This document shows positions 4,037 to 13,749 of a stretch of DNA of 64,000 nucleotides, piece after piece. Below the pieces are notes generated by a model. That model was not told the DNA's origin. It saw only the letters and a program-made list of their open reading frames with translations, and made no database searches. A program made the translations under genes and the position numbers. Source of the DNA: Candidatus Gastranaerophilales bacterium (GTDB lineage Bacteria; Cyanobacteriota; Vampirovibrionia; Gastranaerophilales; Gastranaerophilaceae); contig CALVEV010000001.1 of NCBI GenBank assembly GCA_944326685.1, forward strand, positions 62,001 through 126,000, read 5' to 3'. The stretch's first letter is position 1, and each line of letters starts with the position of its first letter.

Positions 4037-5365
4037 ATGGGTTTAGCTACATCACAAGTTAGACTATTAGCATTAACATCTCGTAAAGCAGATGTTGAAA
4101 TGCAAATACAGCTTAACTCTAAGCGTAAAACTATGTTGACGCGTGAAGCTACAGAATTAGCTAAACTTTATTATGCTAAACTCCAAAATACTAGAATTCA
4201 ATATGCTACAACCAATGGAAATAAAGATGTTACATATAATTACTTGATGGGAACTCCTAATAGTAATTACTTTGATCAAATTATATACCCAACATCAGAA
4301 AACAATATTGATCGAAAAACATCGGACAGCATGGTGTTAACAGACGCATATGGACGTGTAATACTTTCTAATTCAATGGTTAATGTAGTTCTATCTACTT
4401 TAAATCAAGCAACAACACCTGGATTAGCCGGAGGACAAGAAACAACAGAATCAAGAACTATTTCTGCTATGGTTTATTTATTAGAAGAAATGGCTTCTGG
4501 CTCAATGGGAAATTCTAGTGCAGCAGGTGCAGTACTAGAAGTTTATAATTCACTTTACCAAGGGACTGCTTGGGGAACAGGTGGAAACCAAAAACCAGAA
4601 CTTGGTTATGAAATATTACAACATTTATTAAGAAATGGCTACAAACATGGTGGTGAAATATATCGTAAAGGAAGCACAGGAGCTTATACATATTATCCAA
4701 ATAGCAAATGCGAATCTGGAACTGAAATTACTCCAGAAAATGGAACATTTTATATAGTTAAAAATAGCGACGGTAGCTACGTAACAGCTGATGGAGTAGA
4801 CTCAAGTGGTTCAGGTATAATGTATTGGAACGGGGAATTTGTTCCTAAAATAAATACCATTGTGGCTCAAGAAATTTGTAATATGTATAGTTTTTATGGT
4901 TCTATTTTTTCTGCAGCTTTCAATGGAACAAATCAAGGTTGTCAAGGCTTCAACGTTGCAGCACAAATCAATTATAATAAAATAACTGGTGAATGGGTCC
5001 TTGTATCTAACGATGCATATAATACTGTTTCTAACGTTGAAAACTTACAAGATGGTTTAAAATCAGGAATGTATCAACTAGTTAATGTAGAAACACCTGT
5101 CACAGGAGGATATTCAAAAGCCCAAGGATTAGATTACTTTAAAACATTAAATTATGTTGTTGAAAAAGCAGATACAGCAGCAAGAGATACTATTACGGCT
5201 TGGTATGATGCTGCAAGAGCTGATTTAAATGAAAAAGAATCCTATTGGGACTCTGAAATTACAGCCTTATCTTCAGAGTTAAATTCAATAACTACAGAAA
5301 TAGAATCTGTAAAAAAATTAAGAGAGGATGCAATATCTTCAACATTTAAGTGGGGTGGAGCATAA
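4037..5365 (+). CDS. Unrecognised MGxAxSQ-family protein, long form 1 (442 aa)
   Basis: Not a family I recognise. It starts MGLATSQVRLLALTSRK, matching the starts of the proteins at 7943, 10103 and 13408, and ends in a predicted coiled coil (from about residue 400) finishing FKWGGA, again like those proteins. The ~350-residue middle is Asn/Thr/Gly/Tyr-rich and shares only scattered motifs such as IQY...NYxxG and DAYGRVI with the 7943 protein. There is no signal peptide and almost no cysteine. The sigma-28-type promoter 59 bases upstream links it to late flagellar genes. Inference: a substrate of the flagellar export apparatus that may assemble outside the cell through its end helices. AAGGAG precedes ATG 4037. 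Confidence 0.85.
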   Translation: MGLATSQVRLLALTSRKADVEMQIQLNSKRKTMLTREATELAKLYYAKLQNTRIQYATTNGNKDVTYNYLMGTPNSNYFDQIIYPTSENNIDRKTSDSMVLTDAYGRVILSNSMVNVVLSTLNQATTPGLAGGQETTESRTISAMVYLLEEMASGSMGNSSAAGAVLEVYNSLYQGTAWGTGGNQKPELGYEILQHLLRNGYKHGGEIYRKGSTGAYTYYPNSKCESGTEITPENGTFYIVKNSDGSYVTADGVDSSGSGIMYWNGEFVPKINTIVAQEICNMYSFYGSIFSAAFNGTNQGCQGFNVAAQINYNKITGEWVLVSNDAYNTVSNVENLQDGLKSGMYQLVNVETPVTGGYSKAQGLDYFKTLNYVVEKADTAARDTITAWYDAARADLNEKESYWDSEITALSSELNSITTEIESVKKLREDAISSTFKWGGA

Positions 5366-5498: not shown

Positions 5499-7586
5499 TT
5501 ACGCTTTAGCAGCTCCTGATTTTTCAATAATTTCTTTTTCGATATTAGCAGGAACTTGTTCATAGCATTGGAATTCCATAGAGAAAGTACCACGGCCTTG
5601 AGTTTTAGAACGAATATCAGTTGCATATCCGAACATTTCAGCAAGTGGAACTAATGCTCTGATTTTTTGTATTCCAGTACCTTCAATGATTTCCATACCT
5701 TCAACACGTCCACGACGAGAAGAAATATCACCAATAATATCACCAGTGTTTTCTTCAGGAACTTCGATTTCTACTTTCATCATAGGTTCAAGAATACAAG
5801 GTTTTGCTTTTCTTGTACCTTCTTTGATAGCCATAGAACCAGCAATTTTAAATGCCATTTCAGAAGAGTCAACTTCGTGGTATGAACCATCATATAAAGT
5901 AACTTTAACGTCAATCATTGGGAATCCAGCTAAAATACCGCCTTCAAGTGCTTCTTCCATACCTTTTCTAGCAGGTTCAATGTATTCTTTAGGAATAGCA
6001 CCACCAACGATTTTATTTTCAAATACGAAACCAGCATTTTCTTCAGCAGGTTCGATTTGGATTTTAACGTGACCATATTGACCTTTACCACCAGATTGTC
6101 TGATGAATTTAGAATCTTGATCAGCATTACCTCTGATAGTTTCACGGTAAGCAACTTGAGGTTTACCAACGTTTGCGTCTACTTTGAATTCTCTTAATAG
6201 ACGGTCAACAATGATGTCTAAATGAAGTTCACCCATACCAGAAATAATTGTTTGACCAGTTTCGGTATCAGATTTAACTCTGAATGATGGATCTTCTTCT
6301 GCAAGTTTTTGAAGTGCAATACCCATTTTATCTTGGTCAGCTTTTGTTTTTGGTTCAATAGCAACTGAGATAACTGGTTCTGGGAAGTTGATTTTTTCTA
6401 AGATAATAGGTGCTTTTTCATCACATAATGTATCACCTGTTGTTGTATCTTTTAAACCAACTGCTGCACAGATATCACCTGCGTAAACTTCATCTTCTTC
6501 AAGTCTTTGATCAGCATACATTCTAACAAGTCTTGAAATACGTTCTTTTTTACCATTTGTAGCATTAAGAACATAAGAACCAGATGTAAGTTTACCAGAA
6601 TATATTCTCATGAATGTTAAACGACCAACATATGGGTCAGTCATAACTTTGAATGCTAAAGCTGAGAATGGTTCTTCATCAGAAGAATGTCTTTCTACTC
6701 TTGTTCCATCTTCTAATTCCCCTTCAATAGCTTTTACATCAACAGGTGAAGGCATTAATTCAACAATTGAATCTAATAATAATTGAACACCTTTGTTTTT
6801 GAATGCTGTACCACAAGTAACAGGAACAATTTTGTTATCGCAAACAGCTTTTCTTAAACCTTTTTTCAATTCATCAACAGTGATTTCTTCGCCTTCTAAA
6901 TATTTCATCATAAGTTCATCATCAGTTTCAGCAATAGCTTCAACTAATGCATCTCTATATGCTTTTGCATCATCTAACATATCTGCAGGAATTTCTTCTT
7001 CTTTAATATCAGTACCTAAGTCATTAGTGTAAATTTCTGCTTTCATTGTAAATAAATCAATTAAGCCTTTAAATTGATCTTCAGCACCAATAGGTAATCT
7101 GATAGGATGAGCATTAGCGCCTAATCTATTTTTGATTTGGTCTACTACACGATAGAAGTTAGCCCCTGTTCTATCCATTTTATTAACAAATACCATACGA
7201 GGAACTTCATATCTGTTAGCTTGTCTCCAAACTGTTTCAGATTGAGATTGAACACCACCTACTGCACAAAAAACAGCAACAACGCCGTCTAATACACGAA
7301 GAGAACGTTCTACTTCAATTGTAAAGTCAACGTGACCAGGGGTGTCAATAATATTAATTTGGTGTCCTTTCCAAGATGCAGTAACAGCAGCTGATTGGAT
7401 TGTAATACCACGTTCACGTTCTTGTTCCATAAAGTCAGTTACAGCTGCGCCATCGTGAACTTCACCAATTTTATGAGTTTTTCCTGTGTAAAACAAGATA
7501 CGCTCTGTTGTAGTGGTTTTACCAGCATCAATGTGAGCGGCAATACCAATGTTTCTAATTTTTGCTAATGGAGTCTTTCTTGCCAT
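5499..7586 (-). CDS. fusA: Translation elongation factor G
   Basis: EF-G catalyses GTP-dependent translocation and ribosome recycling. G1 [10 protein letters not shown]3 DTPGHVDF and G4 NKMD are all present in the first 150 residues, followed by domains II-V; 695 residues is the normal length. AAGGA precedes ATG. Oddly, fusA is not next to rpsL/rpsG/tuf here but sits alone between two members of the MGxAxSQ family transcribed the other way. Elongation factor G paralogues exist in some bacteria; the sequence looks fully canonical, so it may be the housekeeping copy. Confidence 0.97.
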
Positions 7587-7757
7587 AGTTGTTTTTTCCT
7601 TTATTTATATTCTAATACATATAACTATTAACTAGTCTTATCAAAATTGTCTCACAAACACAATTTAGTTACAAGAACTCTTAATTTTATCTTCTTTAAA
7701 AAATAAAAATTTAAATTTTAAATCTCATCTATTTAGTGTACTTTTTTTTAAGTTCCC

Positions 7758-7784
7758 TGTATTTAGAAAAAAAAATGTCGTTAG
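7758..7784 (+). promoter_or_regulatory. Weak sigma-28-like promoter of the first tandem copy
   Basis: GTCGTTAG at 7777-7784 resembles the sigma-28 -10 element GCCGATAA and matches the -10 elements before flagellin and at 9942 and 12960. The -35 at the N11 spacing (TGTATTTA) matches the consensus at only four positions. The predicted transcript would begin around 7791, exactly at the 5' side of a hairpin. Confidence 0.45.
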
Positions 7785-7791
7785 CCGTATT

Positions 7792-7859
7792 GAGAAGTCA
7801 TGTAAATATTGACTTTTCATCATGTTGACTTTGGAAAAAACGTCATTAAAGACAACATG
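7792..7859 (+). promoter_or_regulatory. Structured 5' leader of the first tandem copy (two hairpins)
   Basis: Hairpin 1: GAGAAGTCA pairs with TGACTTTTC around the loop TGTAAATAT. Hairpin 2: CATGTTGACTTT (7821-7832) pairs with AAAGACAACATG (7848-7859) except for one A-A mismatch. The second tandem copy has the same loop but a different paired stem (AACCCA/TGGGTT), so base pairing is kept while sequence changes, which is direct evidence for a selected RNA structure. It begins at the predicted transcript end and may stabilise the mRNA or control translation. Confidence 0.6.
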
Positions 7860-8031
7860 TACAAACTTGATGTATAGAAGGAAAAGTATGACAAAAAAAC
7901 AGTATAAACATTACCAAAACAGCAAAATAGGAGGACACGCTTATGGGTATGGCAGCATCTCAGGCTAGGTATATAGCCTTGACTGCTCGAAAGAGTAATG
8001 TTGAATACGAAGGGCAACAGATTAACCAAGC
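7843..8031 (+). repeat. Direct repeat copy 1 (leader, uORF and first ~90 bases of coding sequence)
   Basis: Near-identical to 10006-10191. The differences are a few substitutions and one 3-base deletion inside the short upstream ORF. The first ~88 bases of the large gene are identical in both copies, including third codon positions, whereas the middle of the genes has diverged. Confidence 0.9.
7888..7968 (+). CDS. Short upstream ORF (26 codons) overlapping the start of the 579-aa gene
   Basis: ATG 7888 has a close AAGGA and opens a 26-residue frame beginning MTKKQYKHYQNSK and ending YGYGSISG at TAG 7966-7968. It runs through the SD and start of the large gene (ATG 7943) in another frame, overlapping it by 26 bases. 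The second tandem copy keeps the frame despite sequence changes, including a whole-codon deletion. It may be a leader peptide whose translation opens or blocks the downstream start. It is not proven to be translated. Confidence 0.45.
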   Translation: MTKKQYKHYQNSKIGGHAYGYGSISG

Positions 8032-9682
8032 AAGGTTAGCGTTGGCAAATCAATCAGCCAATCTATTCAACCAAATGATGGGAATGAGTGTTCCGACACC
8101 ACCATCTACAACAGATTTTACAACCATTCAATATTCATTTAGTGATGGTGTAAATACTGAAGTATTATCAAATTATTATCAATTAGGTAATTCTGATTCT
8201 GAGTACAACTATGTTGTAACTACTTACCACAACGAAAAAGTTTACACAGGTTCTAAAAAATTACTTAATGACCCTCAAGTTCAAGCGACAGCTACAAATC
8301 ATTTCAGTTACGATCCTACATCAACTGATAATAATACAAGCATGAATGTTGCTAAAGCTTGGAAAAATACCGATGGAACTTATGGTATGCAACCAACAGA
8401 CGGTTCAACATCAATATTCCGTCCTGTTACAGCTAAAGAAGAAGACCAAGTAAGAGCTATTAACAAAGGTAATGGCCTTTATGAAGCTCAAGCAGCAGCT
8501 GGTGATGCCCCAGCAACTAATGGATTATTTAAAAATATTACAATTGATGGTGCAGGAACTTTCAATGCTGATAATGTTGATTCATTCAAATATGATGGTT
8601 CAACATTCCAAAAAGTTACTTATAATGCAGCTGGTACAGGCATGCCTGAAGGCACTAAGGATATAATTGATTCTGTAATTCAAACTCCAGGTACAAATGT
8701 ATATTATGTAGATGAAAATGGTCGTGTAATTACTGATGCTGATCTAAAAGCCGCTGAAACTGGTTATGGTGTTGGTGGGGCAACAAATCCTGAAGAACCA
8801 ATTGCAATAAGAGAAGCTAAAGGTCAAGGATTAGAAACTGCTGGTGATCAAAAATATTATACAGATGGTAAAAAATTCATTACTAAGGCAGATTTAGATA
8901 ATGCAGTTGCAAAATACAACAAATATGTAGAAACAGGCAAAAAAGAACCTAATGATGTTAATTTTATTAATGTGTCAAATGATCCAACATTCTCTAATTA
9001 TACAGCTGTAGGTAACTGTTCTTTAACAGAGTTAAAAGAACAAGATATAGAGAATGAAGATGTATGGACCGAATTAGAACAAATCATGAAGGATATGAAA
9101 GGTCCAAATGGTAGTCAATTAGCATCAGAAAACTTCGCAGCTTGTTTTGATACCGATGAAAATGGTGATCTTGTCTACAAAGGTGGTATTTATACATTCC
9201 AAATGGGTGGAACTACCTACTATACAACTAAAAATGACCTAGATGCATCTTTAGGAACATCTATTGTTGATAATGGTATTGATGTTCAACAAGGCAAGTT
9301 AAATTACTATAATGCAAGTTATCTTGAAACAAAAGTAGAAGAAACACAAAAAGCATTATTAGAAACAGATGGTGCAGGTCGTTTCAAAACCGTTAAATTT
9401 GAAAACGACTCAGTAACATATTCTTTAAATGCAGAAACAGTAACAGATGAGGCTGCATATAAGGATGCTATGAATCAGTATTATTATGAAAATGCTGAAT
9501 ATGAAAAAATGATTTCTGATATTAATGCGAAAACTGAAATCTTACAAGCACAAGATAGAACCCTAGAACTACGTCTTGAACAGTTGAATACTGAACAATC
9601 TGCATTACAAAATGAAATGGAAGCAGTTAAGAAGGTAGTAGACAAGCACGTAGAACAAGGCTTCAAGACATTTGGTGGCTAA
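7943..9682 (+). CDS. Unrecognised MGxAxSQ-family protein, tandem copy A (579 aa)
   Basis: Unrecognised. The N-terminal ~45 residues (MGMAASQARYIALTARKSN...) form a predicted amphipathic helix shared with 4037, 10103 and 13408. The C-terminal ~70 residues are a predicted coiled coil with Glu/Gln/Leu heptads (RTLELRLEQLNTEQSALQ) ending GFKTFGG. The central ~450 residues are Asp/Asn/Thr/Gly-rich with short repeats such as DENGRVIT, DENGDLVYKGGIY and TTYYTTKNDLD, likely beta-rich. No signal peptide. It has about 80% identity by eye with 10103, strongest at the ends. AGGAGG sits eight bases before ATG. The termini-conserved, centre-variable layout recalls flagellins; secretion and assembly are inference. 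Confidence 0.87.
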   Translation: MGMAASQARYIALTARKSNVEYEGQQINQARLALANQSANLFNQMMGMSVPTPPSTTDFTTIQYSFSDGVNTEVLSNYYQLGNSDSEYNYVVTTYHNEKVYTGSKKLLNDPQVQATATNHFSYDPTSTDNNTSMNVAKAWKNTDGTYGMQPTDGSTSIFRPVTAKEEDQVRAINKGNGLYEAQAAAGDAPATNGLFKNITIDGAGTFNADNVDSFKYDGSTFQKVTYNAAGTGMPEGTKDIIDSVIQTPGTNVYYVDENGRVITDADLKAAETGYGVGGATNPEEPIAIREAKGQGLETAGDQKYYTDGKKFITKADLDNAVAKYNKYVETGKKEPNDVNFINVSNDPTFSNYTAVGNCSLTELKEQDIENEDVWTELEQIMKDMKGPNGSQLASENFAACFDTDENGDLVYKGGIYTFQMGGTTYYTTKNDLDASLGTSIVDNGIDVQQGKLNYYNASYLETKVEETQKALLETDGAGRFKTVKFENDSVTYSLNAETVTDEAAYKDAMNQYYYENAEYEKMISDINAKTEILQAQDRTLELRLEQLNTEQSALQNEMEAVKKVVDKHVEQGFKTFGG

Positions 9683-9699
9683 TAATAGTTAGAACTAAA

Positions 9700-9836
9700 A
9701 TTGAGAAATCACAAGTATATTACAATTATGGTTTGCTGTTTTGGCGAATACTTAAAAGATGCTTATGGTTCCTTCCTATACCAGCTGGCTTGATTATTCG
9801 TCCCATTTGTTAAAATATATTGAATAATTTCTCAAT
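9700..9836. repeat. Ten-base inverted repeat enclosing a decayed gene remnant
   Basis: ATTGAGAAAT at 9700-9709 and ATTTCTCAAT at 9827-9836 are perfect inverted copies flanking the remnant of a Gly-rich gene. No target-site duplication or transposase is visible, so it may simply be an RNA stem or chance in AT-rich DNA. Confidence 0.35.
9728..9812 (+). pseudogene. Decayed copy of the 11889-type Gly-rich gene
   Basis: Two blocks match the beginning of the intact gene at 11889. The first corresponds to its DGLLVIANKF segment (here YGLLFWRI). The second reads AYGSFLYQLA-stop-LFVPF against ACGGFLYQLASLFAPS of the intact gene. About 110 bases between the blocks are missing, and a stop replaces a serine codon. 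It lies directly after copy A, where the intact gene lies after copy B, so the duplicated unit contained both genes and one partner has decayed. Confidence 0.72.
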
Positions 9837-9851
9837 AATACTAAGTAGAAT

Positions 9852-9887
9852 AACGAGATATCTTAAAAAAGGTATCTCGTTTTATTT
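9852..9887 (+). terminator. Terminator after tandem copy A
   Basis: AACGAGATATC and GGTATCTCGTT form an eleven-base-pair stem (one G-U pair) around an eight-base A-rich loop, followed by TTTATTTTAT. Confidence 0.88.
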
Positions 9888-9922
9888 TATCCTCCAAACA
9901 GATGAAATTATTTCATATAAGT

Positions 9923-9949
9923 TACATTTTTCAATGAATTTGTCGTTAG
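9923..9949 (+). promoter_or_regulatory. Sigma-28-like promoter of the second tandem copy
   Basis: TACATTTT (9923-9930), 11 bases, then GTCGTTAG (9942-9949). The -35 matches TAAAGTTT at six of eight positions; the -10 is identical to that of copy A. The predicted transcript begins near 9957, at the first conserved hairpin. Confidence 0.55.
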
Positions 9950-9956
9950 ACGTCAT

Positions 9957-10022
9957 GAGAACCCATGTAAATATTGGGTTTCAGACGTTGACTTTAATAA
10001 AAAAATCATTAAAGACAACATG
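9957..10022 (+). promoter_or_regulatory. Structured 5' leader of the second tandem copy (two hairpins)
   Basis: Hairpin 1: AACCCA and TGGGTT around the same TGTAAATAT loop as in copy A, with compensatory changes in the stem. Hairpin 2: GTTGACTTTAAT (9987-9998) pairs with ATTAAAGACAAC (10008-10019) with one A-A mismatch at the same position as in copy A. An outer ACGTC/GACGT pairing (9950-9954 with 9984-9988) is possible here but is largely upstream of the predicted transcript start and weak in copy A. Confidence 0.6.
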
Positions 10023-10191
10023 TACAAACTAAATGTATAGAAGGAAAAGTATGACAAAAAATCAGTATAAACATTACAACAACAAAATAGGAGGACATGC
10101 TTATGGGTATGGCAGCATCTCAGGCTAGGTATATAGCCTTGACTGCTCGAAAGAGTAATGTTGAATACGAAGGGCAACAGATTAACCAAGC
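10006..10191 (+). repeat. Direct repeat copy 2
   Basis: Partner of 7843-8031, covering the leader hairpin 3' arm, the upstream ORF, the SD and the first ~88 bases of the large gene. Confidence 0.9.
10051..10128 (+). CDS. Short upstream ORF (25 codons) overlapping the start of the 576-aa gene
   Basis: ATG 10051 with AAGGA just upstream opens a frame reading MTKNQYKHYNNK...GHAYGYGSISG and stopping at TAG 10126-10128, overlapping the main start (ATG 10103). Relative to copy A one codon is deleted and substitutions occur, but the frame, start, SD and stop are all kept. The C-terminal half is constrained by the overlap, so only the first half gives independent support. Confidence 0.45.
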   Translation: MTKNQYKHYNNKIGGHAYGYGSISG

Positions 10192-11833
10192 TAGAACAGC
10201 TTTGGCTAACCAAACGGCTAACCTATTCAACCAGATGATGGGTATGGGAGTTCCAACTCCACCATCAACAACAGATTTTACTACTGTACAATATTCATTC
10301 AGTGATGGTGTAAATACAGAAGTATTATCAAATTATTATCAATTAGGTAATTCTGATTCTGAGTATAACTATGTTGTAACTACTTACCACAACGAAAAAG
10401 TTTACACAGGTTCTAAGAAGAAGATGAATGACCCTCAAGTTCAAGCAACTAAAACAAACCACTTTACTTATGATCCGACATCAACAGATGATAATACAAG
10501 TATGACAGTTGCTAAAGCTTGGAAAAATACTGATGGAACATATGGAATAGAAGCATCAGATGGAACAACTACTATCTTCCGTCCAGTAACAGAAAAAGAA
10601 GAAGACCAAGTAAAAGCTATTAACAAAGGTAATGGTGTTTTAGTTGATCAAGCAGCTGCTGCTGATGCTCCATCAACAAATGGTTTATTTAAGAATATTA
10701 CGATTGATGGTGCAGGAACTTTCAATGCTGATAATGTTAATTCATTCAAATACGATGGTTCAACATTCACAAAAGTTGAATATGATACAGCAGATGCTTC
10801 AATGCAAGGCATAATTGATTCTGTAATTCAAAATCCTGCAGGTAATAATTACTATGTTGACGAAAATGGACGTGTAATTACAGATGATGATTTAAAAACT
10901 GCAGAAACAAATTATGGTGTTGGTGGTGCAACAAATCCTGAAGAACCAATCGCAATAAGAGAAGCTCAAGGTGAAGGTATCACTGGTGATCCTACTACAG
11001 AAAATTATTTTACAGACGGTAAAAAATTCATTTCAAGAACTGATTTGGATAATGCTGTTGCTAAATATAATAAGTATGTAGAAACAGGTAAAAAAGAACC
11101 TAATGAAGTTAATTACATAACTCCTCAAAATGACCCTACATATTCAAACTACACCGCTGTAGGTAACTGTAAATTAACAGAATTAAAAACAGCTGATCTT
11201 GAAGATGAAGATGTATGGGCTGAATTAGAACAAATCATGAAAGACATGAAAGGTCCTAATGGTGATACAACAGCAGCGGCAAACTTTGCAGCTTGCTTTG
11301 ACACTGATGAAAATGGGGATCTTGTCTACAAAGGTGGAATCTATAAATTCCAAATGGGTGGTACAACTTATTACACCACTAAAAATGATTTGGATACCTC
11401 ACTAGGAACATCTATCGTTGATAACGAAATTGATGTTCAACAAGAAAAGCTAAACTACTATAATGCTTCTTATTTAGAAACAAAAGTAGAAGACACTCAA
11501 AAAGCTTTATTAGAAACAGATGGTGCGGGTCGATTCAAAACCGTTAGATTTGAAGATGATTCAGTTACATACACTTTAAATACAGAAACAGTAACAGATG
11601 AAGATGCATACAACGATGCAATGAATCGTTACTACTACGAAAATGCACAATACGAAAAGAGTATTGCTGACATCAACGCTAAAACTGAAATTATTCAGGC
11701 TCAAGATAGAACCCTAGAACTACGTCTTGAACAGTTGAATACTGAACAATCTGCTTTACAAAACGAAATGGAAGCAGTTAAGAAGGTAGTAGACAAACAC
11801 GTAGAACTTGGATTCAAGACATTCGGCGGTTAA
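10103..11833 (+). CDS. Unrecognised MGxAxSQ-family protein, tandem copy B (576 aa)
   Basis: Paralogue of 7943, same architecture: N-terminal helix MGMAASQARYIALTARK, variable Asp/Asn/Thr-rich centre with DENGRVIT and DENGDLVYKGGIY, and a C-terminal coiled coil ending GFKTFGG. ATG 10103 is chosen over ATG 10097 because AGGAGG lies eight bases before it and the start then aligns exactly with copy A. Nucleotide identity is near complete over the first ~90 and last ~130 bases and lower in the middle. No terminator separates it from the Gly-rich gene 55 bases downstream, so the two are probably cotranscribed from the sigma-28-like promoter at 9923. Confidence 0.87.
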   Translation: MGMAASQARYIALTARKSNVEYEGQQINQARTALANQTANLFNQMMGMGVPTPPSTTDFTTVQYSFSDGVNTEVLSNYYQLGNSDSEYNYVVTTYHNEKVYTGSKKKMNDPQVQATKTNHFTYDPTSTDDNTSMTVAKAWKNTDGTYGIEASDGTTTIFRPVTEKEEDQVKAINKGNGVLVDQAAAADAPSTNGLFKNITIDGAGTFNADNVNSFKYDGSTFTKVEYDTADASMQGIIDSVIQNPAGNNYYVDENGRVITDDDLKTAETNYGVGGATNPEEPIAIREAQGEGITGDPTTENYFTDGKKFISRTDLDNAVAKYNKYVETGKKEPNEVNYITPQNDPTYSNYTAVGNCKLTELKTADLEDEDVWAELEQIMKDMKGPNGDTTAAANFAACFDTDENGDLVYKGGIYKFQMGGTTYYTTKNDLDTSLGTSIVDNEIDVQQEKLNYYNASYLETKVEDTQKALLETDGAGRFKTVRFEDDSVTYTLNTETVTDEDAYNDAMNRYYYENAQYEKSIADINAKTEIIQAQDRTLELRLEQLNTEQSALQNEMEAVKKVVDKHVELGFKTFGG

Positions 11834-11888: not shown

Positions 11889-12746
11889 ATGGCATATAAG
11901 AATGATGGTTTACTGGTTATAGCGAATAAGTTCGGAGCAGCATCCGCTGATGCAAAGTGTATGCTATACGAAACTTATGATAGATTAAGAGACTTAACCG
12001 TTTCTGGTTCTGCAAGCTCCGGAACAGGCTTTGAGGCTTGTGGTGGCTTCCTATACCAACTTGCCAGCCTATTCGCTCCATCCTCTTTTATGAATACATT
12101 GGGCGGAACTCAATCATTTAATATCCCTGGTACTTCATATTGGTCACCATATTCTGGTGGTACAGGTACTGTAAGTGGGGGTTATGGCGCTTTTGGACTT
12201 AGCGGACTAGGGAACTATTCAGGGTTCCCTAGTGGAGCCGCTAATGTTAAGTGGGGCTTAGGAAGCGGTTCTACAACTGGTGGAGCGTCTAGTATTAATG
12301 GATTATTATCAGGACTTGGATCTGCAAGTGGCACAGTTACAGGAGGAGCTTCAAGTATTGGTAGCGTTGCAGATGTAGCATCTGCAGCTGCATATGGTAT
12401 TGGAACTGCAAATGGTTATGGGATTGGAGCTGCGGGTATTTTAATGCCTTTAGCCGGATTAGTTTCTGGTTGGGGTGGTATTATGACTGCGGCAGCACCT
12501 TATTTAGGAGAATTCGGATTACCTGCTATTGTTATGGGTAATTTAATGCAAGGAACTTCATCAGCAGCTTTATCTGCTTATCAAAATGTATCTAGTAATA
12601 TTTTATCAAATGCCGACACAATTCTTTCTCAAAAAGTTGCAAACATTGAAACTGTTTGTAAAATGCTTGATACACAAGGTGAAGTTGTAAGAAAAATGTT
12701 AAAAGAACAAATGGACGGCGACAGCAAAGCTATTCAAAACTTATAG
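11889..12746 (+). CDS. Gly/Ser-rich hydrophobic protein cotranscribed with copy B (285 aa)
   Basis: Unrecognised. Residues ~1-75 are mixed (YETYDRLRDLTVSGS, then FLYQLASLFAPS). Residues ~80-165 are Gly/Ser/Thr-rich low complexity. Residues ~165-225 are long hydrophobic Gly/Ala-rich stretches with glycine-zipper spacing (YGIGAAGILMPLAGLVSGWG). The last ~60 residues are a helical, charged tail (NIETVCKMLDTQGEVVRKML). There is no N-terminal signal peptide. A hydrophobic Gly-rich centre followed by a helical tail could insert in a membrane, and its placement after the family protein suggests a common pathway; both are inference. GAGGA precedes ATG 11889. A decayed copy follows tandem copy A. Confidence 0.82.
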   Translation: MAYKNDGLLVIANKFGAASADAKCMLYETYDRLRDLTVSGSASSGTGFEACGGFLYQLASLFAPSSFMNTLGGTQSFNIPGTSYWSPYSGGTGTVSGGYGAFGLSGLGNYSGFPSGAANVKWGLGSGSTTGGASSINGLLSGLGSASGTVTGGASSIGSVADVASAAAYGIGTANGYGIGAAGILMPLAGLVSGWGGIMTAAAPYLGEFGLPAIVMGNLMQGTSSAALSAYQNVSSNILSNADTILSQKVANIETVCKMLDTQGEVVRKMLKEQMDGDSKAIQNL

Positions 12747-13407: not shown

Positions 13408-13749
13408 ATGGGTTTAATAGCATCATCAATGCGATTATTAACACTAACTGCTTATAAAAATCAGTTAGAAATGCGCATTCAATCTGTGACTGAAAGTTTA
13501 ATTGGACTTCAATCACAAATTGATGAATTAGTAACAATAGGTGCTGATTTAGACCCTGATAGTGATGCTTTAAAAGATTTAAAAGTTAAAAAAGAACGCC
13601 TTAATTTAATAGAGAAAAAATTAGAAATGCAACAAAAACAATTCCAAACTCAATTGGAAGCTGTTAACCAAGAAATTCAATCTTGTCAACAAATGCTTGT
13701 TGGTAATATTCAAAGCGGAATCTTTGGATATTCTTTAGGCGGTAGATAA
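13408..13749 (+). CDS. Unrecognised MGxAxSQ-family protein, minimal form (113 aa)
   Basis: Begins MGLIASSMRLLTLTAYKNQLE, aligning with the N-termini of 4037, 7943 and 10103, and continues directly into a predicted coiled coil (LNLIEKKLEMQQKQFQTQLE) that ends FGYSLGGR, matching their C-terminal ends. The variable centre is absent, so this protein consists of just the two conserved ends. This defines the family core and suggests the ends work together, for example by pairing as in flagellin D0. AAGG precedes ATG 13408. Sigma-28-type transcription is likely through the upstream 89-aa gene. Confidence 0.8.
   Translation: MGLIASSMRLLTLTAYKNQLEMRIQSVTESLIGLQSQIDELVTIGADLDPDSDALKDLKVKKERLNLIEKKLEMQQKQFQTQLEAVNQEIQSCQQMLVGNIQSGIFGYSLGGR

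Follow-up and report, generated by a model that had tools for sequence, protein, structure and literature searches.

Two tandem neighbouring genes of Candidatus Gastranaerophilales, an uncultured gut bacterium, each have one hairpin ahead of them, and comparison of the leaders within the genus gives moderate support to conservation of the hairpin's shape. Our best explanation, held tentatively, is a genus-specific stem-loop at the 5' end of the message, probably mRNA-stabilising, upstream of a second promoter and of a conserved, overlapping upstream open reading frame (uORF). If this is right, Gastranaerophilales have in the hairpin a cis-regulatory RNA element with sequence support; following it up also brought to light a 25-bp element, which probably marks a flagellar/type III export regulon. 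A passage in PMC4040986 records complete flagella gene sets in only three of the nine genomes of the order then available.

Genes in the window

The window, that is, the whole stretch of DNA analysed (64,000 nucleotides), carries on its plus strand CDS A (7943..9682) and its paralogue CDS B (10103..11833), which are 85% identical and were assigned to no Pfam family. In the family, CDS A included, the N- and C-terminal parts are conserved and the middle is variable, a flagellin-like layout, and the AlphaFold model of CDS B shows a helix (2-46), a beta-rich middle and a second helix (500-573). Flagellin identity by fold was considered for CDS B and rejected: its best PDB matches are flagellar filaments, yet they are weak (E 1.6e-3, TM 0.12), and for this reason only a flagellin-like layout is claimed. 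Many of the named relatives are from Candidatus Gastranaerophilales. The genome of the window encodes a FliA/WhiG sigma factor above cut-off; FlhA-type matches number three, of which two are full-length. Ten sigma factors scored above cut-off. Apart from A and B themselves, the genome holds 13 further matches of CDS B, in some cases two parts of one gene; more proteins with an MG-[ML]-x-[AST]-S-like start lie at 4037-5365 and 13408-13749 of the window, and proteins with this start form a large family of probable export substrates with the N-terminus in common.

Between CDS A and CDS B, the stretch at 9696-9810 derives from the gene at 11889-12746 and is its decayed leftover from a tandem duplication. 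The intergenic segment 9697-9845 was tried as a structured RNA (fold z -2.6, partly retained in genomes G002 and G007), but was set aside as gene remnant.

The hairpin in the two copies

Hairpin A (7795..7815, plus strand) consists of AAGTCA, the loop TGTAAATAT and TGACTT, with a 10-bp stem when folded as 40 nt; hairpin B (9960..9980, plus strand) consists of AACCCA, the same loop TGTAAATAT and TGGGTT, and is extended by a lower stem (ACGTC/GACGT). Both exist as the earlier sequence-only reading of this DNA had described them. They were predicted in all four leader folds made, and as 40-nt segments they reach z -3.87 (A) and -4.13 (B), with none of 200 shuffles folding as well. That reading had counted three compensatory stem pairs; the copies in fact differ at only two (G-C to C-G and T-A to C-G), both of them changed on both sides of the stem. 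Since the stem has been altered on both sides and the shape retained, the hairpin probably acts as folded RNA.

Comparison of leaders within the genus

Eleven leaders were collected, from seven of the eight genomes of the genus, and the hairpin could be drawn in every one. The loop had been called invariant, which holds for copies A and B but not across the genus: TGTAAATAT is intact in 8 of the 11 leaders, CATGTAAA in all 11, and three leaders diverge in the 3' half of the loop. Sites of GYCGTTAGMCGTNNTRAGAA without mismatch number 10, all at hairpin leaders, and one stray site with two mismatches occurs in G001; G007:C28 carries a CATGTAAATATTG site outside any such leader context, which was left out of the leader set.

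The alignment (A2) has 11 rows, nine of them distinct, and only seven distinct hairpin segments. The six pairs of the upper stem are paired in 92.6% of its cells; one of these pairs is G-C in five distinct rows and C-G in two, and the adjacent one is U-A, U-G or C-G. In leader G007_A the old 3' arm has been replaced and the hairpin re-formed as AAGAAG-UCAUGUAAAU-CUUCUU, with CATGTAAA still within the loop. Two of eight segments fold weakly, no better than shuffles (G002_A, z -0.71; G006, z 0.20); apart from these, the unpaired stems and drifting loop that the sequence-only reading had named as evidence against itself were not seen within the genus. In a shuffle control on A2, the covariation score was matched by 5 of 500 shuffles and the count of double-changed pairs by 196 of 500.

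The arms vary around a fixed CATGTAAA, which the re-formed hairpin of G007_A also keeps in its loop, and this is what would be expected if the conserved loop CAUGUAAA were bound by a protein or small RNA, the stem merely presenting the loop and the target lying in the transcript started upstream of the hairpin. We think this improbable: the 3' half of the loop is not constant, the loop has no GGA, and no known RNA family was matched.

In the tree-aware null, per-column substitution counts were kept, the substitutions were placed at random on an assumed species-and-copy tree, rather than an inferred gene tree, and new bases were random. The mean MFE of the seven distinct hairpin segments is -10.9 kcal/mol, against -6.7 (sd 1.3) in the weighted null, where 4 of 1000 replicates reach the observed value, and -6.8 (sd 1.2) with uniform branches, where 1 of 1000 does. 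When the whole leader was scanned in 25 sliding windows of 48 columns, those at the hairpin alone stood at about -3.5 (z -3.6 and -3.5); the next-best one (z -1.7) overlaps the hairpin. For the 11 genes, IQ-TREE gave a tree in which A and B copies are intermixed, and which was therefore not used for the null; the tandem copies have probably exchanged sequence, as by gene conversion. Because of this mixing the rows cannot be counted as independent, which makes the p-value (about 0.001-0.004) a rough one.

The single genus, the few distinct rows, the two weak folds and a double-changed pair count so readily equalled by shuffling would all suit a hairpin with no function, an inverted repeat from one ancestor that has stayed undecayed in close, gene-converting tandem copies and whose matched changes are luck. 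Such an origin is in our judgement unlikely, given how rarely the tree-aware null reaches the observed folding energy and shuffles reach the covariation score, the re-formed stem of G007_A, and the hairpin being the sole region of the scan to approach z -3.5. Selection on RNA structure at the first hairpin is supported, moderately and for this genus only, by compensatory or wobble changes at two pairs, the G007_A stem and the tree-aware null. The sequence-only reading had spoken of direct evidence for selected RNA structure; selection at the first hairpin is supported, but 'direct' is too strong for 11 related leaders with seven distinct segments from one genus, with tandem exchange and two weak folds, and the second stem that it had included adds no support.

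The second stem and the 25-bp element

This second stem, GTTGACTTT/AAAGACAAC, lies at 7824-7832/7848-7856 in copy A and at 9987-9995/10011-10019 in copy B and had been put forward as a retained CTTT/AAAG pairing. It is indeed kept in all 11 leaders, but as none of its eight pairs varies there is no covariation evidence for it; with a sliding-window z of -0.8 besides, it was rejected as evidence of RNA structure. It is overlapped by the 25-bp element, here called P2 (7825..7849 in copy A, 9988..10012 in copy B, both plus strand), which has the form TTGACTT-N11-TCATTAA and occurs order-wide.

The strict form is present in 6 of the 11 genus leaders and TTGACTT-N12-CATTAA in all 11. Strict sites number 87, in 39 of 58 genomes, against one site for the reversed control; the element can also be written TTGACTT-N3-A-rich-TCATTAA, and the looser TTGAC-N14/15-NTTA[AT] precedes 75 of 80 CDS A/B-family genes. 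Flagellar rod/FliJ-like genes are among those behind strict elements, which include an FlgEFG-family gene over the subfamily cut-off, FlgC-like and FliJ-like genes, both under their cut-offs, and genes for small zinc-ribbon-like proteins; other strict elements lie in regions divergent from a gene that we take to resemble DUF1858. At loci L226 and L227 the element directly follows a terminator-like hairpin, and at L214 and L215 it lies 26 nt ahead of the start codon and no -10 can be recognised upstream, contexts that disfavour a leader-RNA motif. Recurring as it does before flagellar and other genes, some of them with no visible upstream promoter, the element is more likely, from its sequence contexts, to be a promoter or operator than leader RNA, and it probably serves a flagellar/type III export regulon. 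An ordinary sigma70 promoter (TTGACT, 17 nt, TATAAT) was rejected, as 47 distinct sites show no -10-like conservation downstream; when 7500-10200 was scanned with a generic sigma70 model, promoter-like sites were no more frequent than in shuffles (11 vs 12.1).

A DNA role for P2 bears on the hairpin as well, which lies just upstream of it, where activators bind, and whose centre is better conserved than its arms. Either the inverted repeat as a whole or CATGTAAA at its centre might then be an operator or activator site next to an element that itself acts like a DNA signal, the RNA hairpin being incidental. We hold this to be slightly less probable than either a loop-binding partner or a repeat with no function: within one genome the half-sites read AAGTC and AACCC, each with its partner side matched, which a single DNA-binding protein would not need, and family leaders elsewhere retain P2 without the hairpin.

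A recurrent dyad, CATN-N5/6-GATGATTTTT, operator-like in form, was also observed in the window at about 7723-7748 and 9901-9925, and at L198, L202, L220 and L223; it lies upstream of CDS A/B-family genes and, in flagellar genes, downstream of the 25-bp element.

The upstream promoter-like site

The hairpin is located between P2 and a promoter-like site, P1, whose sigma28-type -10-like part GTCGTTAG is found at 7777..7784 (copy A) and 9942..9949 (copy B), both plus strand. Its -35 is not recognisable, and P1 is proposed here from other family leaders. GTCGTTAG is kept in 9 of the 11 hairpin leaders, with GCCGTTAG and ACCGTATG in the remaining two; a TAAAG -35, which would stand some 15 nt ahead of the -10's CG, is found in none of the 11. 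Of 70 other element-bearing family leaders, 21 have TAAAG-N13..16-NNCG[TA] upstream of the element, 8 or 9 nt away from TTGAC, where 0.2 would be expected; among these 70 are L116, L117, L118 and L123, other paralogues in genomes of the hairpin genus. The sigma28 (FliA/WhiG) promoter consensus is TAAAGTTT-N11-GCCGATAA. The family resembles sigma28 promoters in these 21 leaders, and the genome has a sigma factor of the FliA/WhiG type, whereas the 11 hairpin leaders retain the -10-like part alone.

The hairpin had been said to begin at the predicted transcription start. A start just 5' of it is plausible with GTCGTTAG immediately before, but the TAAAG -35 that would complete such a promoter is lacking from every hairpin leader. 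As the sigma28-like promoter is degenerate there, we infer transcription of the hairpin from P1 by similarity to the other leaders.

The uORF

The uORF lies between P2 and the gene, on the plus strand, at 7888..7968 in copy A (26 codons) and at 10051..10128 in copy B (25 codons, MTKNQYKHYNNKIGGHAYGYGSISG); each copy has its own SD and overlaps the main start in another frame. It is intact in all 11 genus leaders, with 24-26 codons; its length shifts by whole codons (3 nt) only, and its last 26 nt lie within the main gene, in the other frame. In the sliding test the uORF/SD region was less folded than the null. The sole terminator-like site in 7500-10200 is at 9852-9881, upstream of leader B.

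Range of the hairpin

A covariance model of the leader (R1) was run on 146 family genomes and matched 9 of them at E <= 0.01, five from the hairpin genus; leader-bearing G002 and G007 are absent among the matches listed. The four other genomes contribute five R1 loci, and a hairpin in other genera was rejected on the contexts of four of these (all except L254), which show no CATGTAAA-loop hairpin. A P1-like site was recognised at 48 of 75 loci with other family leaders, and in 43 of them 4 or 12-16 nt separate it from TTGAC, too little to accommodate the hairpin. Family leaders elsewhere keep P2 without it; as judged from these sequences, this genus has added the hairpin. Rfam gave no match at the gathering threshold in the whole window and none at E up to 1 in 7600-10110, and our literature searches found no work on leaders or promoters of Gastranaerophilales, nor such a leader there.

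Proposed function and comparison with known systems

Under the explanation that we favour, the two tandem flagellin-like genes would each have a longer transcript, with the hairpin as an RNA stem-loop close to its 5' end. Transcripts started at P1 would begin with the stem-loop and those started at P2 would be without it, and both would carry the conserved uORF overlapping the main start. The stem would slow 5'-end-dependent decay of P1 transcripts, as a stabiliser of the ompA kind. Such a stabiliser is the most likely function because conservation is stronger in the shape than in the sequence of the stem, the hairpin contains neither a terminator nor an SD, and the uORF/SD region, itself unstructured, is not tied up by it.

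A more elaborate reading treats the whole leader as a composite control region without described counterpart, with a sigma28-type promoter and hairpin, a 25-bp second promoter and an overlapping leader peptide, in which the 25-bp promoter is that of an uncharacterised sigma factor or activator driving a residual flagellar/type III export regulon. We give this the least credence of the readings set out here. If it were true, one gene would give a long-lived or a short-lived message according to the promoter used, the transcripts differing only in the hairpin-bearing 5' part.

Leader-peptide attenuators combine a conserved uORF in the leader with an alternative terminator before the gene. The leaders described here likewise have a short conserved uORF; unlike in attenuators, no terminator lies between uORF and gene, and the uORF overlaps the main start, in all 11 leaders.

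CsrA binds GGA motifs, and in Campylobacter the leader of flagellin is reported to be under CsrA/FliW control (PMC4894983). The likeness is that here, too, a flagellin-like gene has a stem-loop in its leader. No GGA of the CsrA type is present in the hairpin loop, TGTAAATAT or its variants, in the 11 aligned leaders, and the loop is thus not a CsrA-type site.

In the E. coli ompA type, a 5'-terminal stem-loop stabilises a bacterial mRNA. The present element differs in that its genes are flagellin-like and its loop is partly conserved; as to position at the 5' end, the -10-like GTCGTTAG is in place and the TAAAG -35 occurs in 0 of 11 leaders. It resembles the ompA type in having a conserved stem-loop structure, with moderate support, which is apparently near the 5' end, keeps its shape despite changes in the stem, contains no terminator and lies far upstream of the ribosome-binding site.
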